Of a stretch of DNA of 64,000 nucleotides, positions 21,159 to 27,932 are shown piece after piece. The notes under the pieces were generated by a model. The model was not told the origin of the DNA. It did not search any database and was given only the letters and a program-made list of their open reading frames with translations. The stretch lies in NCBI RefSeq assembly GCF_017358165.1, contig NZ_CP071446.1:1674001-1738000 (forward strand). Reading direction: 5' to 3'. Position 1 is the stretch's first letter. Every line of letters starts with the position of its first letter. The DNA comes from Thermosipho ferrireducens. GTDB taxonomy: Bacteria > Thermotogota > Thermotogae > Thermotogales > Fervidobacteriaceae. A program made the translations under genes and the position numbers.

Positions 21159-22355
21159 ATGTTAAAAGACATATTTTTTGATCAGGTGAGGCCCGCTTAT
21201 GGATGTACTGAACCAATAGCAGTAGCCCTTGCAGTTGCAACTGGAAAAAAATACTTAAAAGGCGAATTAAAAGAAGCTTATATAACCCTGGACAAAAACA
21301 CATACAAAAATGGTCTTGTAGTTACTATACCAGGAACACATTTTTCGGGACTGGAAATTGCCGGGGCTTTAGCATACATTTGCGGAAATCCAGAACTTGG
21401 TCTTGAAGTATTAAAACACGTTGATAAAAATTGTACTTTAGAAGCCAAAAAGCACGTCAAAAAGTTTAATGTTTCAATCGCAAAAGAAAGTCCCACTCTT
21501 TCAATAGATGTCACATTAAAAGGAGAAAATACCGTTAGAGTCACAGTCAAAGGAAAACATGATAATATTGTTCACATAGAAGTTGAAGGAAAACAAATCT
21601 TAGATAAACCCTTCAAAAACAACGGAACCTTGCTGGAGAAAATCAAACAGTACACCTTAGATGACATTATAGGTTACATAGAAAATCCTGAAGAAGACGT
21701 TATCAAACATGTTGAAAAAGCAATAGAGATGAATCTTAACATAGCAAAATTTGGATTGGAAAATCACAATAGTTTCTCCAAAATTGCACCAAACAATAAT
21801 ATCAAATTCGTTGAGGCAGGCATTGAAGCGAGAATGGATGGCGCACTTATGCCTGTTATGACTGTAGCTGGAAGTGGTAACCAGGGGTTATCGTGCATCC
21901 TTCCAGTAGCTTCTGAAATTGAAAATTTTCCCAGAATAAAAATTATAAAAGCTGTTCTTCTCAGCATACTTACCACTATTTATATAAAAGCCCACACTGG
22001 ACTTCTAACTCCCATTTGTGGAGCAGGGGTTATTTCCGCTGCCGGAGCAGCTGCAGGCCTTACATATTTGAATAATGGCACAAAAGAACAGATAAAAAAT
22101 GCAATAAACGACACACTTGGAACACTTTTTGGTTTAACATGTGACGGTGCCAAACGTGGATGTGCTTTAAAAGCAGGAACAGGAACATTTGTTGCGCTTC
22201 AGAGCGCCAGATTAGCATTAGCCGGGATAAATGTCCCATGTGGAAATGGAATTGTTGCAAAAAACGTCGAAGAAACTATAGATAGAGTTGAGAAACTAAC
22301 TCTGTCAGTTAAACAGTTTGACAACGATGTTCTGGATTACATAGGAAAATGTTAA
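21159..22355 (+). CDS. L-cysteine desulfidase / UPF0597 family protein
   Basis: 398 aa, member of the UPF0597 family distantly related to the Fe-S domain of L-serine dehydratase. Conserved cysteines occur in YGCTEPIA (C16 region), CGAGVISAAGAAAG and TCDGAKRGCALKAG; three of them should hold a 4Fe-4S cluster as in archaeal L-cysteine desulfidase (cysteine to pyruvate, ammonia and sulfide). Bacterial members may act on cysteine or serine. GGGGGTATT precedes ATG at 21159. It lies near DUF1015 and sdaAB/sdaAA genes, so a joint role in serine/cysteine breakdown is likely. Confidence 0.8.
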   Translation: MLKDIFFDQVRPAYGCTEPIAVALAVATGKKYLKGELKEAYITLDKNTYKNGLVVTIPGTHFSGLEIAGALAYICGNPELGLEVLKHVDKNCTLEAKKHVKKFNVSIAKESPTLSIDVTLKGENTVRVTVKGKHDNIVHIEVEGKQILDKPFKNNGTLLEKIKQYTLDDIIGYIENPEEDVIKHVEKAIEMNLNIAKFGLENHNSFSKIAPNNNIKFVEAGIEARMDGALMPVMTVAGSGNQGLSCILPVASEIENFPRIKIIKAVLLSILTTIYIKAHTGLLTPICGAGVISAAGAAAGLTYLNNGTKEQIKNAINDTLGTLFGLTCDGAKRGCALKAGTGTFVALQSARLALAGINVPCGNGIVAKNVEETIDRVEKLTLSVKQFDNDVLDYIGKC

Positions 22356-22356
22356 A

Positions 22357-22381
22357 AAAAGCGGGGACTGCCCCGCTTTTT
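22357..22381. terminator. Bidirectional terminator between UPF0597 and DUF1015 genes
   Basis: AAAAGCGGGG (22357-22366), a 4-base loop and CCCCGCTTTT (22371-22380) with A/T runs on both sides; serves the converging genes that end at 22355 and 22392. Confidence 0.88.
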
Positions 22382-22391
22382 CAATTTAACT

Positions 22392-23630
22392 TCAAATCAA
22401 ATGAACAACTAACCCACTTTTCAACTTTGGTTCAAACCAGGTTGATTTTGGAGGCATTATCTTTCCTTCATCTGCAACCGCAAGTAATTCTTCTATTGAA
22501 GTTGGATACATAGAGAAAGCTACTTTAAACTCTCCATTGTCCACAAGTCTCTGCAACTCTTTTACTCCCTTTATTCCTCCAACAAAACTAATTCTTTTAT
22601 CAGTTCTTGGATTTTCTATACCAAGAATTGGTTTCAAAAGATTCTCCTGAAGAATCGATACATCAAGTGACGAAACCACATCGTTTTCATCGTATGTACC
22701 CTTTTTAGCCGTTAGTTTATACCATTTTCCGCTTAGATACATACCAAATTCGTGCTTTGTCTGAGGTTTATAAGGAGACTCTGGAGCATCTTCTATCAGG
22801 AATTTTTCTTTCAGTTTTTCTATAAACTCTTCTTCACCAAGACCATTTAAATCTTTCACTACTCTATTGTAATCAAGTATGTTCAATTGATTGTGAGGAA
22901 ATAAAACTGCAAGAAAATAGTTATACTCTTCTTTACCTGTATGCCCTGGGTTTTCTTTAGCAAAAGCCTCGGCAGCTCGTGCGGCAGCTGCTGCTCTGTG
23001 ATGACCATCTGCAATGTAGAATGCGTTTATATTTTTGAAAGCTTCTTCAATCTCCTTGACTTCATTTTCATCTTTTACAACCCACAAGGTATGATGAACT
23101 CCTGAATCATCAGTATAATCGTAAACCGGTGTTTTTTCCGTATGCTTGATTATAAGCTCATCAACTTCTGGTTTTGCTCTATACATTAAAAACACCGGTC
23201 CAGCATGAGCCTTTAAAAGCTGAACATGTTTTGCTCTTTCATCTTCTTTATCCTTTCTTGTTAACTCATGCTTTTTTATTTTTCCTTCCTGATATTCCTT
23301 TGTAGAAAACGTTGCATATATTCCTATTTGCGAATAATCTCCCATAGTTTCTCTGTATATATAGAATGCAGGTTTATCTTCAAGTATCATTACACCTTCT
23401 TTTTGAAACATTTCAAGAATTTCTTTTCCTTTCAAAATAACCTCATCAGATTGAGTATCAACTTCACTATCAAAATTTATCTCCGGACGCGTCACCCGAT
23501 AAAACGTATACGGATTCTTTTCAGCCTCTTTTCTGGCTTCTTCAGTTGTTACCACATCATAAGGTTTCGCAGCCACTTTTTCAACCATATCTTCACGTGG
23601 TCTTAAACCTTTGAAAGGTCTTACTACCAT
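22392..23630 (-). CDS. DUF1015 family protein
   Basis: 412 aa, full length for the family. N-terminal RPFKGLRP and KPYDVVTTEEA, and the central ADGHHRAAAA (about residue 215), which resembles the D-G-x-H-R motif of ParB-fold enzymes such as the archaeal free-serine kinase SerK. The similarity is visual, not tested. Two adjacent ATG codons exist; the second (23630) is better spaced from AAGGAGG. It is flanked by a cysteine-desulfidase-like gene and by L-serine dehydratase genes, and family members in clostridia are often near serine-synthesis genes, so a serine-linked activity is a reasonable guess. Confidence 0.75.
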   Translation of the reverse strand: MVVRPFKGLRPREDMVEKVAAKPYDVVTTEEARKEAEKNPYTFYRVTRPEINFDSEVDTQSDEVILKGKEILEMFQKEGVMILEDKPAFYIYRETMGDYSQIGIYATFSTKEYQEGKIKKHELTRKDKEDERAKHVQLLKAHAGPVFLMYRAKPEVDELIIKHTEKTPVYDYTDDSGVHHTLWVVKDENEVKEIEEAFKNINAFYIADGHHRAAAAARAAEAFAKENPGHTGKEEYNYFLAVLFPHNQLNILDYNRVVKDLNGLGEEEFIEKLKEKFLIEDAPESPYKPQTKHEFGMYLSGKWYKLTAKKGTYDENDVVSSLDVSILQENLLKPILGIENPRTDKRISFVGGIKGVKELQRLVDNGEFKVAFSMYPTSIEELLAVADEGKIMPPKSTWFEPKLKSGLVVHLI

Positions 23631-23842
23631 CATATCCCTCCTTCTTTGAACTGATTTTCCACGGTGATTTTAACACAGGCAAATGAAAGATACAACATCG
23701 ATTTAAACTAATTGTTTTAAAATTTGTTTCTTTAACGCTTTTACACATTTTTTCACGCAACTATTCTAAAATTTCCAGAGACTTAATACAAAAACTGTGC
23801 TAAAATCAACATGAAATTATTTGAATAATTGGAGGAGATACT

Positions 23843-24490
23843 ATGGGATTATTAAATGTTATGGGACCAGCGATGGTTGGCCCATCCAGTTCGCACACTC
23901 TTGGAGCCCTGAGAATTGCAAGGTTCGCACACAAACTTTCTGAAGGAATCCCGGAAAATGTAGAATTCGTCCTGCACGGTTCATTTTCAAAAACGTACAA
24001 AGGTCATGGTACTGATAGAGCATTACTTGCGGGTATTATGGGACTAAAACAGGACGATCCCAAAATAAAAGAGGCATACAAAATAGCAGATAAAACGGGG
24101 ATAAAATACCGCTTTGTGTTCGAAGATTTGGGCGACGTTCACCCAAATACTGTAAGAATAAAGACATATAAATCGGGCATAACCCATGAAATAGAGGGCG
24201 CGTCAATTGGAGGAGGAGCAATAAAAATAACATTTATAGATTCAGTGGCATGTGAACTATCATGGGATTACGACACATTAATAATAGTAAACAAAGACGC
24301 CCCGGGTATATTAGAAAAAATACTCGAAAAAATAAATGTTAACGTTGCCAATCTATATCTAAGAAGAATCAACGCACTTTTAGAAAGGGCATTAACCATA
24401 ATAGAACTTGATGAACCCATCAAAGACCTTTCACACATCAAAAAACTACCATATATTTATGAATGTTACTTCATCAGGAGGGATATTTAA
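23843..24490 (+). CDS. sdaAB: L-serine dehydratase, beta subunit
   Basis: 215 aa. One half of the anaerobic two-subunit Fe-S L-serine dehydratase (serine to pyruvate and ammonia). MGLLNVMGPAMVGPSSSHTLGALRIA is the start of the beta domain; GAHTDRA-like GHGTDRALLAG and SIGGGAIKI follow. Residues about 145-215 form an ACT domain (IIVNKDAPGILEKI), the usual amino-acid sensing module. GGAGGAGAT precedes ATG at 23843. A possible extended -10 (GTGCTAAAAT) ends at 23806. The stop shares one base with the alpha subunit start. Confidence 0.95.
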   Translation: MGLLNVMGPAMVGPSSSHTLGALRIARFAHKLSEGIPENVEFVLHGSFSKTYKGHGTDRALLAGIMGLKQDDPKIKEAYKIADKTGIKYRFVFEDLGDVHPNTVRIKTYKSGITHEIEGASIGGGAIKITFIDSVACELSWDYDTLIIVNKDAPGILEKILEKINVNVANLYLRRINALLERALTIIELDEPIKDLSHIKKLPYIYECYFIRRDI

Positions 24491-25356
24491 TGAACACATG
24501 GAAAGAGTTGATTGAATTCTGGAAATCATCAGAAATGCCATTTCACGAAGTTATACTAACAGCAGAAATGCTTGAAACAGGAGATGATCCAGAAATTATA
24601 AAAAAAGAGCTTCTAAATTTGCTTTCCATAATGATGGAAGAAGCAGAAAAGCAATTTGGAAAAAAGCAGGAGACTCTGACAAACCTTACTGGAAATAACG
24701 CTTATAAACTTGCAAATACAAGTCCTACATATTTCGGAAGATTTAATTATATCGCAACAACAACAGCTCTTTCAATATCAGAAAGTAACGCTGCTATGGG
24801 AAAAATAGTAGCATGCCCAACTGCAGGGGCTTCCGGCATTATACCTGGTATTTTTTACGCTTTAAAAAAAGAATTTAAAGAAAAAACAGAAAAACTTTTA
24901 CCAGCATTTATAGTTTCAGGTGGAGTGGGAAATATAATTGCAAAAAAAGCCACCATTTCTGGTGCAGCAGGAGGCTGTCAGGCTGAAATAGGAACGGCAA
25001 CGGCAATGGCCGCAGCCGGGCTTGTTTATTATGTGTCCAGAGATGGTGTAAAAGCAGGTCACGCTGCATCTTTAGCCTTGAAATCTCTTATGGGACTTGT
25101 GTGTGATCCAGTTGGAGGTTTTGTAGAAGTTCCATGTGTAAAGAGAAATGGAAATGCTGTTAATGTTGCCATTTCATCTGCTGAAATGGCTTTAGCAAAT
25201 ATTGAAAGTAAAATCCCACTGGATGAAGTGGTTGATGCCATGAGAATAGTTGGAAAATCACTCCCTGAGTCTCTTCGAGAAACTGGTGAAGGTGGTATTG
25301 CTGCAACTCCTACTGCCAGAAGACTAATTGAAAGCATAAGACATTTCAGCAACTAA
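24490..25356 (+). CDS. sdaAA: L-serine dehydratase, alpha subunit
   Basis: 288 aa. Catalytic subunit carrying the 4Fe-4S cluster that acts as Lewis acid on serine. Cysteines C109 (ACPTAGASG), C163 (GGCQAEIG), C205 (VCDPVGG) and C216 (VPCVKRN) are conserved; the last three are the probable cluster ligands. ATG at 24490 follows AGGAGGGAT and overlaps the sdaAB stop (TAATG). With sdaAB it feeds serine carbon into pyruvate, which the por enzyme encoded 3 kb downstream can oxidise. Confidence 0.95.
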   Translation: MNTWKELIEFWKSSEMPFHEVILTAEMLETGDDPEIIKKELLNLLSIMMEEAEKQFGKKQETLTNLTGNNAYKLANTSPTYFGRFNYIATTTALSISESNAAMGKIVACPTAGASGIIPGIFYALKKEFKEKTEKLLPAFIVSGGVGNIIAKKATISGAAGGCQAEIGTATAMAAAGLVYYVSRDGVKAGHAASLALKSLMGLVCDPVGGFVEVPCVKRNGNAVNVAISSAEMALANIESKIPLDEVVDAMRIVGKSLPESLRETGEGGIAATPTARRLIESIRHFSN

Positions 25357-25514: not shown

Positions 25515-26321
25515 ATGTCAAAAAAGAACGAAGTTACACAACTAAAAGATTGGTTGAATACCAATCCCACAATCCAGGAACTTAAAAAAATGGCAAAAGA
25601 TTTAGGTTTAAGAGTGAAACGAATGATGAAAAAAAGAGAAGTTATAAAACTTTTTGAGCAGTACATTGAAGAGTTAGAAAACAGAGAAAAAAGTCCCTCT
25701 TCCTCTTCATCACAGATAAAACCTTCCTACGAAAAAGAAATCAAGCCTTTAGAAAGAAAAGAAATTACTCTCCCGGAAACTTACGGCAAAGACAAACTTA
25801 TTCTCATGCCTGTGAATCCTAACTGGATTCATATTTACTGGGATTTTTCCATTAGAACACAAAAAATTTTATCAGATTTACCATATGGTTCAAGAACGGC
25901 CCTTCGAATTTACGACGTGACTTACATTCGATTCGATGGTAACAACGCACATAGAACATTCGAATTAATTGTTGATGTAAGAAAAACAAAAAATTATTAC
26001 TTTAATGTTCCAATGCCAGATGCAAACTATTTAGCCGAATTAGGATACATTACTAAAGATAGAAGATTTGTCCCCCTGCTTCGTTCAAATGTTTGCAAAA
26101 CCCCGGCAAATTCCCCGAGTCCAAGCTCCAGGGAAAGATGGCTTGATATAAGAAAAAAGAGAAAAATAGTCACACCATCTCAAGGTCCTGTCATAAAAGA
26201 GATTGAACATGTTGCAGGATCAATGTTTGGTATAAACAGAGAAATAATTCACCAGGCTGTTTCAGGTGAAGGAATGTTGTGGCAATTGATCAGTATATTA
26301 CGAAGTGGAAGGGGGATATAA
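25515..26321 (+). CDS. DUF4912 protein upstream of GH57 branching enzyme
   Basis: 268 aa. Residues 1-50 look like a Rho-N/SAP-type helical domain (WLNTNPTIQELKKMAKDLGL). A Ser-rich linker follows (59-66), then the DUF4912 domain (about 85-195) with TYGKDKLILMPVNPNWIHIYWDF. DUF4912 proteins are often encoded beside glucan enzymes; an adapter or regulatory role is inferred from this. The C-terminal part is basic. No catalytic residues recognised. AAAGGGGGA precedes ATG at 25515; four bases separate it from the branching enzyme gene. Confidence 0.8.
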   Translation: MSKKNEVTQLKDWLNTNPTIQELKKMAKDLGLRVKRMMKKREVIKLFEQYIEELENREKSPSSSSSQIKPSYEKEIKPLERKEITLPETYGKDKLILMPVNPNWIHIYWDFSIRTQKILSDLPYGSRTALRIYDVTYIRFDGNNAHRTFELIVDVRKTKNYYFNVPMPDANYLAELGYITKDRRFVPLLRSNVCKTPANSPSPSSRERWLDIRKKRKIVTPSQGPVIKEIEHVAGSMFGINREIIHQAVSGEGMLWQLISILRSGRGI

Positions 26322-26324
26322 AAT

Positions 26325-27932
26325 ATGCCAAAGGGAAATATTGTTTTTGTGCTCCACGCGCACCTGCCATATATTCATCATCCAGAGTATAATTATTTTC
26401 TGGAGGAACACTGGTTATTTGAGGCTATAACAGAAACTTACATACCACTTCTTAGAATGTTCAGAAAATTAGAAAGCGAAGGCAAGAAATTCAGGCTCAC
26501 AATGTCCATAACTCCACCCCTCATGGAAATGCTGGCCAATAAAGAACTTCAAAATAAATATGTTGAACACATGGAATTAATGATAGATCTTGCCCGCAAA
26601 GAAATTGAACGAACAAAATCTGAACATCCCCTTAAACATAAAATGGCAAAATTTTATTATGAGGATTTTCAGAAAATTCTTTACATATTTAAAGATATAT
26701 ACCAGAACAATATACTTAACGGTTTTAAAGAGTATTTAGACAAAAATTATCTTGACATTATTACCTGTAATGCTACGCACGGTTTTCTACCATTTATGGA
26801 ACAATATCCCCAGGCAATTCGCGCGCAAATCGAGCAGGGAATAAAAACTTATGAGAAACACATTGGACGAAAACCACGTGGTATCTGGCTGGCAGAGTGT
26901 GCTTATTTTCCAGGACTTGATAAATACCTTGCAGAGTATGGTATTGAATACTTTTTTGTAGATTCTCACGGATTATGGTATGCAGACGAAAGGCCTCGTT
27001 ATGGCGTCTACAGACCGGTTATTACACCGAGCAATGTTTTTGTTTTCGCAAGAGATCCTAAAAGCAGCGAGCAGGTCTGGAGTTCTCAAATAGGTTATCC
27101 CGGTGATTCAAGATATAGAGAATTTTACAGAGATATTGGTTTTGATAGAGAGTTTGACTATATAAAACCATACATCGATCCTATTGGAACAAGAACAAAC
27201 ACTGGTATAAAGTATCATAGAATCACTGGAAAAGATGTTCCTCTTAATATGAAAGATTATTACGATATAGATGCGGCAAAGACAGCTGCCAGAGAGCATG
27301 CTCGGGATTTTTTAAGAAAAAAAGAAAGTCAGGTTTCACGTTTAATGAAACTTTTCGAGGGCCTTGAACCGGTTATAGTAGCACCATTTGATGCGGAATT
27401 ATTTGGCCATTGGTGGTATGAAGGGCCAGTGTTTCTGGAAGAATTTATGCGCTATGTCTCTGAAAGCTCAAAAGTTCGCGCTTTAAAAGCGTGCGATGTT
27501 GTTGACATTACTGAAAAAGTTCAGATAGTAACGCCAGCGGCTTCTACCTGGGGAGCAAACGGTTACAATGAAGTCTGGCTTAATGGAAGTAACGACTGGA
27601 TATATCCTCATCTTCATGAACTGGTTGAAAAAATGACAGAAGTTGCGAAAATTTATCCCGTTCCTGAAAACACCAACCCAAAAATAAGAAGAACATTGTG
27701 CCAGATGGCAAGAGAATTGCTTCTTGCCCAATCAAGTGACTGGGCCTTCATTATGACGACTCAGACCAGTGTGGATTATGCTGTTAACAGAACTAAAACA
27801 CATGTGAAACGTTTTTTAGATTTGTACGATATGGTAAAGAGTGGTAAAATAGATATGGGAAGACTTTCACATTATGAATGGGTTGACGATATATTCCCGG
27901 AAATTGATTATACTATGTACCTAAAAACCTAA
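26325..27932 (+). CDS. 1,4-alpha-glucan branching enzyme, GH57
   Basis: 535 aa. Retaining glycoside hydrolase family 57 enzyme that makes alpha-1,6 branches in glycogen. Starts with VLHAHLPYI (GH57 region 1); the nucleophile is E191 in WLAECAY and the acid/base D356 in APFDAELFGHWW. The C-terminal helical domain (about 430-520, DUF1957-type) has WGANGYNEVWLNGSNDW. Length and motifs match the Thermus and Thermotoga GH57 branching enzymes rather than GH57 amylases. Cytoplasmic, no signal peptide. With the phosphorylase gene at the window start it points to glycogen storage. Followed after 25 bases by the por operon. Confidence 0.92.
   Translation: MPKGNIVFVLHAHLPYIHHPEYNYFLEEHWLFEAITETYIPLLRMFRKLESEGKKFRLTMSITPPLMEMLANKELQNKYVEHMELMIDLARKEIERTKSEHPLKHKMAKFYYEDFQKILYIFKDIYQNNILNGFKEYLDKNYLDIITCNATHGFLPFMEQYPQAIRAQIEQGIKTYEKHIGRKPRGIWLAECAYFPGLDKYLAEYGIEYFFVDSHGLWYADERPRYGVYRPVITPSNVFVFARDPKSSEQVWSSQIGYPGDSRYREFYRDIGFDREFDYIKPYIDPIGTRTNTGIKYHRITGKDVPLNMKDYYDIDAAKTAAREHARDFLRKKESQVSRLMKLFEGLEPVIVAPFDAELFGHWWYEGPVFLEEFMRYVSESSKVRALKACDVVDITEKVQIVTPAASTWGANGYNEVWLNGSNDWIYPHLHELVEKMTEVAKIYPVPENTNPKIRRTLCQMARELLLAQSSDWAFIMTTQTSVDYAVNRTKTHVKRFLDLYDMVKSGKIDMGRLSHYEWVDDIFPEIDYTMYLKT

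Follow-up and report, generated by a model that had tools for sequence, protein, structure and literature searches.

What does a DUF1015 protein do beside genes for serine breakdown in Thermosipho ferrireducens? The question arises from a stretch of 64,000 nucleotides (contig NZ_CP071446.1, positions 1,674,001 to 1,738,000; hereafter the window), in which a gene of this family lies between a CyuA-like gene and the serine dehydratase genes sdaAB and sdaAA. A preliminary description of the locus, made from the sequence, had noted an ADGHHR motif like that of ParB-fold free serine kinases and had suggested that the protein phosphorylates or senses serine. Our analysis points to a serine/phosphoserine phosphotransferase of the SerK/SbnI superfamily, a reading to which we give a probability of about 0.72. 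Such an enzyme would catalyse phosphoryl transfer between L-serine and a small donor or acceptor (ATP/ADP, ADP/AMP, pyrophosphate/phosphate or water are candidates), and would act at the serine <-> O-phosphoserine step beside SerA and SerC, with serine and phosphoserine as its probable substrates. In the window genome the reaction may run from phosphoserine to serine, as the last step of serine synthesis, rather than carrying serine into catabolism; this is less certain. SerC-like and SerA-like genes lie side by side in that genome, and canonical SerB was not found. A wider and more tentative proposal, which we hold at somewhat less than even odds, is that DUF1015 carries out the final step of serine biosynthesis, for which an enzyme is missing, in Thermotogota and in many anaerobes and proteobacteria without SerB. 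A phosphotransferase of ParB/SerK fold would then remove the phosphate of O-phosphoserine, and the acceptor, in place of water, might be a nucleotide or else phosphate, the latter giving pyrophosphate (PPi).

Structural and Remote Sequence Similarity to Free Serine Kinases

An AlphaFold2 model of the window protein, built from a 79-sequence alignment, reached a predicted local distance difference test score (pLDDT) of 96.3 and a predicted TM-score (pTM) of 0.91. Foldseek comparison with the PDB returned only nine matches at E ≤ 1e-3, all of them free serine kinases: six SerK-type entries (5x0e, 1vk1, 5x0k, 5x0g, 5x0b, and 5x0j) and three of SbnI (6nr6, 5uje, and 5ujd). The tenth row was unrelated (E 0.057). 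With VIA-align 2, the nine SerK/SbnI chains, which are 232-254 residues long, aligned over 212-225 residues with Z-scores of 11.5-13.3 and root-mean-square deviations (rmsd) of 3.9-5.5 Å, while the ParB N-domain 5k5d aligned over 82 residues (Z 3.2, rmsd 2.9 Å). The modelled protein thus resembles most of the free-serine-kinase architecture, beyond the nucleotide-binding ParB fold alone. The matched region begins at residues 88-97 in seven of the nine matches, and residues 1-90 lie outside most matched ranges. Profile-profile comparison (hhalign) with two SerK sequences gave E-values of 9e-5 and 6e-5 (probabilities 59 and 65%), pairing DGHHR with the SerK DGHHR and MPPKSTW with the SerK SPKTTR. 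The resemblance to SerK and the ParB fold proposed in the preliminary description is supported by these comparisons, and the absence of ParB-fold similarity, which it had named as a refutation, was not what the predicted structure showed.

Conserved Residues

Seven residues (D26, E123, G210, H212, R257, P394, and K396) are invariant in all 144 relatives compared, of which 78 come from genome contigs, six from plasmid records and 60 from genomes of a clostridial phylum, one gene (L089/L144) being counted twice. The clostridial-phylum loci were assigned by the better tblastn score to class A (window-type) or class B (Monoglobus-like), beside a divergent class C. H122, H211, and T398 are altered solely in the four class C sequences, and R213 is altered there and in one class B sequence. 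DGHHR was present in 79/79 relatives checked, although the motif was itself one of the two scan patterns that had found them; among the 60 loci found with Pfam, H211 and R213 are kept in 16/16 class A loci, in 40/40 and 39/40 class B loci, respectively, and in 0/4 class C loci. Class C proteins (L191, L192, L194, and L195) have GDGNHS in place of DGHHR and LPRKTFS or LPKKAFS in place of MPPKSTW, and neither SerC nor SerA was found near their genes (0/4).

The HE pair upstream of DGHHR offers a further point of comparison. SerK E30, which presumably has a catalytic role, is the residue replaced in the solved mutants E30A and E30Q (5x0e and 5x0j) and stands in the context KPHEQ; E123 of DUF1015 stands in the context KKHEL. 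Judged by order and secondary-structure context, E123 may act as the equivalent of E30.

Genomic Association With SerC and SerA

The association of DUF1015 with serine biosynthesis genes is recurrent. A first sample took the 80 best among 582 relatives, a diverse set of loci whose open reading frames (ORFs) were clustered without preselected genes. SerC was found within six genes of DUF1015 in 24/80 and SerA in 22/80, the next family being ilvB with 7/80. Under looser clustering and within four genes, SerC was found at 26 of the 80 loci, SerA at 22, either at 29 and both at 19, with the partner gene on the other strand at three of the 29 (L044, L065, and L079).

A second sample consisted of 119 genomes from the phylum of a Clostridium metagenome-assembled genome (MAG; G071), which we take to be Bacillota_A in GTDB, chosen regardless of DUF1015 context. 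DUF1015 was present in 59 of them, at 60 loci. At class A loci SerC was near in 12/16 and SerA in 10/16, seven of these directly upstream; SerC and SerA occurred together at 5/40 class B loci. Other same-strand families reached at most 4/60 loci, and opposite-strand families up to 10/60, in class B. Two SerC types were counted, the classical one and a class V aminotransferase whose L144 example is under every NCBIfam SerC cut-off (serC_3 model 89.8 bits against a cut-off of 401.65), the latter resembling the SerC3 that lies beside serA in Clostridium (PMC9026213). SerC of the first type was found in 23/59 genomes with DUF1015 and in 11/60 without (Fisher p 0.015), a weak difference from a model that misses the other SerC type; results of a protein search for that other type were left uncounted, as they include paralogues. 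Annotated records have serC, a dehydrogenase gene and DUF1015 consecutively in Bacteroides finegoldii, Listeria and Enterococcus raffinosus; the B. finegoldii dehydrogenase is annotated merely as an NAD(P)-dependent oxidoreductase. DUF1015/COG4198 neighbours serC in two Porphyromonas species, according to the available part of one paper (PMC11316588). A scan of viral contigs yielded no relative.

In Thermotogota, exactly one DUF1015 match per genome was found in 61/61 genomes, all of which also have a SerA-like and a SerC-like gene (best SerC-like match per genome, 30-36% identity). The SerC-like and SerA-like matches of the window genome lie 131 bases apart (C1:1792079-1794090), outside the window. 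Neighbourhoods were compared in 20 other Thermotogota genomes from five of six sampled families, over ~6 kb per side: SerC was near DUF1015 in 0/20, and a SerA-like match in 1/20, a weak one (L128, 26% identity).

Three plasmid records present other contexts. In the SbnA/SbnI pair, the kinase provides phosphoserine. In a Streptomyces longwoodensis plasmid (L036, 2439-6182), genes for an SbnA-family-like pyridoxal phosphate (PLP) enzyme, an MFS transporter and DUF1015 are consecutive; the best NCBIfam model for the first is the SbnA family, at 252.8 bits and under the cut-off of 349.95. This order possibly recalls the SbnA/SbnI logic of 2,3-diaminopropionate synthesis and may be part of a natural-product locus. 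In a plasmid record of Monoglobus pectinilyticus (L035, 3107-7927), DUF1015, 24% identical to the window protein, is followed on the same strand by thrB and the genes for homoserine dehydrogenase and aspartate kinase, a hint that the Monoglobus-like subfamily may handle a different phosphorylated amino acid. DUF1015 of a Thiodictyon syntrophicum plasmid (L034, 2205-7266) is divergent from a cluster of cobD, bluB and a cobyrinate a,c-diamide synthase gene; CobD uses threonine phosphate.

Distribution Relative to SerB

Canonical SerB was defined as a match to TIGR00338 (HAD-type) over cut-off, and all SerB counts cover this type alone. It was found in 0/61 Thermotogota genomes, the window genome included, with one weaker match of 107 bits. 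Among 200 Pseudomonadota genomes (the phylum of a betaproteobacterial MAG, G089), SerB was present in 7/48 with DUF1015 vs 128/152 without (Fisher p ~1e-18, uncorrected for kinship). The DUF1015 and SerB matches lie ~3 kb apart or less in five of the seven genomes that have both (L197-L201), which are probably one lineage and an exception to the general exclusion.

Possible Regulation by T-Boxes and Riboswitches

T-box leaders activate gene expression in response to their uncharged cognate tRNA. Such leaders precede serC-serA-DUF1015 at four loci: L094 (126.4 bits) and L155 (132 bits), both with the specifier UCC (Ser), and L139 (83.6 bits, UCC, Ser) and L176 (84.9 bits, GGC, Gly), both below 93, the Rfam gathering score. 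The specifiers were assigned by eye as the codon after GAA, that of L139 by comparison with L155; applied to the T-box before a TrpB-like gene of L082 (named by eye), this rule gave UGG as one of two candidates. L139 has a terminator-like hairpin between serA and DUF1015, which makes its operon less certain, and in L137 a serine T-box precedes serC-serA, with DUF1015 upstream of that T-box. Serine and glycine T-boxes before four serC-serA-DUF1015 loci suggest a role in biosynthesis rather than in a catabolic branch. Taken with the apparent replacement of SerB, the regulatory evidence leans toward the direction phosphoserine -> serine, and the branch between phosphoserine and pyruvate that the preliminary description had imagined is not favoured.

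Glycine riboswitches have also been linked to this family, if COG4198 is, as we assume, the same family as DUF1015. In the available parts of two papers, COG4198 genes are reported to be preceded by glycine riboswitches with a single aptamer (PMC2211319, 2007), and a glycine riboswitch is reported to control serC and serA in one Clostridium species (PMC3766115, 2013). At gathering score, no glycine riboswitch was found among our 29 SerC/SerA loci and the window.

The Window Locus

The window protein matches PF06245 over the whole profile (1-325/325; 376.7 bits, cut-off 25.8, E 1e-112). At E ≤ 1, it matched no NCBIfam model, and Pfam gave only DUF1015 and one sub-threshold match of 20 residues, with no helix-turn-helix (HTH) and no dimerisation domain. 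The features of the locus are collected in Table 1.

Table 1. Genes, motifs and hairpin at the DUF1015 locus (window coordinates).
Feature	Coordinates	Strand	Basis or remark
DUF1015 (PF06245) gene, 413 aa	22392..23633	-	Pfam; residues ~90-413 have the predicted SerK/SbnI fold
PYD motif, residues 24-26, N-terminal extension	23556..23564	-	D26 kept in 144/144 relatives
HE motif, H122-E123	23265..23270	-	E123 kept in 144/144; proposed counterpart of SerK H29-E30, putative register
ADGHHR motif, residues 208-213	22995..23012	-	DGHHR string as in SerK residues 69-73
MPPKSTWFEPK motif, residues 393-403	22425..22457	-	P394 and K396 in 144/144; paired by hhalign with SerK SPKTTR
CyuA/serine-dehydratase-alpha-like gene, 398 aa	21159..22355	+	Pfam SDH_alpha, E 7e-43; convergent with DUF1015
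Hairpin GCGGGGCAGTCCCCGC, A/T runs flanking both sides	22354..22384	.	By eye; likely common terminator of the two convergent genes
sdaAB, L-serine dehydratase beta subunit	23843..24490	+	TIGR00719 over cut-off; divergent from DUF1015
sdaAA, L-serine dehydratase alpha subunit	24463..25356	+	TIGR00718 over cut-off

The gene order given in the preliminary description is correct as judged by ORFs, Pfam, TIGR00719 and TIGR00718, and the SDH_alpha match is compatible with a candidate UPF0597/CyuA-type name for the first gene. DUF1015 is on the strand opposite to all three neighbours, and therefore shares no operon with the CyuA-like gene or with sdaAB-sdaAA. It is most likely a transcription unit of its own, because it lies tail-to-tail with the CyuA-like gene with a hairpin between them and is divergent from sdaAB-sdaAA across a 209-base gap; a terminator scan did not have this hairpin among its reported sites. 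Among the 20 other Thermotogota genomes, sda genes were close to DUF1015 in one (L129) and a CyuA-like gene in none. With the opposite strands, the hairpin and these counts (1/20 and 0/20), the sda/CyuA neighbourhood was ruled out as functional evidence. The serine/cysteine catabolic setting on which the preliminary description had built hence falls away, whereas the role in serine or phosphoserine metabolism that it had proposed is supported by the recurrent serC-serA context and the SbnA-family-like neighbour in Streptomyces. Its fold and substrate hunch is well supported, on better grounds than those it gave, and its interpretation as a whole is partly supported.

Beyond sdaAA, at 25515-27932, lies a DUF4912 gene directly followed by a gene resembling a GH57-type glycosidase, the second name being given by eye.

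Weighing the Readings

Several observations weigh against a serine/phosphoserine phosphotransferase or against the serine-forming direction. Foldseek gave moderate TM-scores, between 0.33 and 0.38 by query and between 0.49 and 0.59 by target, and neither phmmer with the window protein nor hmmsearch with the 79-sequence profile found a true relative in the PDB. This null result counts against close membership in SerK/SbnI but does not bear on remote homology. Among the alignments listed, local and global hhalign runs on sub-regions paired DGHHR and the C-terminal motif, but not E123 with E30. Neither SerC nor SerA was in the examined flank of 51/80 diverse loci, some of which were ended by contig ends. 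In the window organism, DUF1015 is not adjacent to serC-serA, and the gene counted there as "SerC-like" encodes an aminotransferase of class V with 33% identity to a query that is itself under every SerC cut-off. T-box regulation of DUF1015 loci is the exception, a pattern scan having found T-box-like cores before 4/47 loci with SerC or SerA near (29/80 plus 19/60, one counted twice).

The SerB distribution also has its counterexamples. SerB over cut-off was found in four of 49 genomes (those of 48 of the 80 loci and the window genome), nine more genomes having weaker matches of 50-104 bits, and the control genomes of Bacteroides ihuae and Methanosarcina acetivorans carry both SerB and DUF1015. 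The Pseudomonadota genomes with DUF1015 probably come from few groups, because they recur at regular list steps. In the clostridial phylum, SerB over cut-off was found in 0/119 genomes regardless of DUF1015 (with weaker matches in 4/119), so its absence there is uninformative. Moreover, reversing a kinase with formation of ATP from phosphoserine is uphill; a serine-forming enzyme would therefore need hydrolysis, PPi formation and removal, or a strong pull. The characterised SerK runs from serine to phosphoserine with ADP, and its authors suggest roles in cysteine synthesis and serine assimilation (PMC5120207, available in part).

There is a rather unlikely alternative, to which the preliminary description came close: a serine kinase with an assimilatory or catabolic role, alongside serine dehydratase, whose product phosphoserine is converted to phosphohydroxypyruvate and then 3-phosphoglycerate by SerC and SerA running in reverse, as the available part of the same paper proposes for Thermococcus (PMC5120207). 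The fold is that of SerK, which works in this direction, and the co-occurrence with SerA and SerC would be expected equally. Genomes with both SerB and DUF1015 fit as well, as do the published glycine riboswitches upstream of COG4198 genes and of serC-serA in one Clostridium, and the Streptomyces SbnA-family-like neighbour would require phosphoserine. Against this, the Ser/Gly T-boxes before four loci (two below gathering score) imply expression under starvation, canonical SerB was not found with DUF1015 in 61/61 Thermotogota and 41/48 Pseudomonadota genomes, none of the 29 loci or the window has a glycine riboswitch at gathering score, and the sda neighbourhood is unconserved.

Two other readings change the substrate or the kind of activity. 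A kinase or phosphatase for a related substrate (homoserine, threonine or phosphothreonine) might account for at least some subfamilies, given the Monoglobus gene before homoserine dehydrogenase, thrB and aspartate kinase, the Thiodictyon gene across from cobD and other cobalamin genes, and class B and C motifs that differ from the window type. We regard it as improbable: linkage to serC-serA is most frequent in the class to which the window protein belongs, a homoserine and a cobalamin context were met at a single locus each, and class B too joins serC-serA at 5/40 loci. More improbable still is a non-catalytic protein that senses or regulates serine metabolism, its ParB fold serving as a switch that binds nucleotide and serine. 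Switches do occur among ParB-fold proteins, linkage in operons would by itself be compatible, and, in the available part of a recent study (PMC12704722, PNAS 2025), "DU1015" is among the fusions in 50 ParB-CTPase-fold proteins chosen for nucleotide-binding tests; DUF1015 is not among the nucleotide binders that this part names. However, the structure comparison ranks two enzymes, SerK and SbnI, first along most of their chains and ParB-N far lower, Pfam shows no DNA-binding domain in the window protein, its invariant residues have a catalytic look, and one copy in each of 61 genomes with SerA/SerC-like genes suits an enzyme.

A serine/phosphoserine phosphotransferase would bear on a recognised gap, as 450 gut genomes have SerA and SerC without any of four phosphoserine phosphatases (PMC9026213). 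Our literature search, which most subscription papers lay outside, found no statement of DUF1015 as a serine kinase or phosphoserine enzyme; the available part of a cysteine database paper places DUF1015 in its category "electron transport chain" (PMC12828279). A diphosphate-serine phosphotransferase of Propionibacterium (EC 2.7.1.80) and PPi-dependent serine kinases may have been described, although the search found neither. With its SerK fold, its serC-serA neighbours and a distribution in Pseudomonadota that largely excludes SerB, the family makes the phosphatase gap testable with one purified protein. If the proposal is true, a DUF present in 61/61 Thermotogota and 59/119 clostridial-phylum genomes would gain a function, and a fold of the kinase family would carry out the phosphoserine step instead of a phosphatase.

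Comparison With Known Systems

ParB/Noc CTPase clamps have in common with DUF1015 the nucleotide-binding fold; in the window protein, Pfam finds neither the HTH nor the dimerisation domain, and a SerK-type C-terminal domain is predicted instead. SerB, of the HAD family, would share the proposed step, phosphoserine -> serine after SerA and SerC, but its fold is unrelated, and its distribution is largely complementary to that of DUF1015 in Pseudomonadota. SbnI of Staphylococcus, which we take to be the serine kinase for staphyloferrin B, resembles DUF1015 in fold (Z 11.5-12.2, rmsd 3.9-4.4 Å) and in the SbnA-family-like neighbour of the Streptomyces gene; it belongs to another family by sequence, and many DUF1015 genes adjoin serC-serA instead.

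The remaining comparison is with SerK (TK0378 of Thermococcus kodakarensis; Pyrococcus furiosus homologue 1VK1), an ADP-dependent free serine kinase. DUF1015 differs from it in length (413 vs 242 residues), with an N-terminal extension of ~90 residues and an HE-to-DGHHR spacing longer by 47 residues, in the lack of similarity detectable by phmmer or hmmsearch, and in largely excluding canonical SerB in Pseudomonadota. The likeness lies in the fold, for which four of the six SerK-type rows align DUF1015 from residue 92/97 to 413 and the other two from 27 to 413, in the nucleotide-loop motif DGHHR, the C-terminal P-K-[ST]-T and the upstream HE pair (SerK H29-E30), and in the metabolic link to SerA and SerC.

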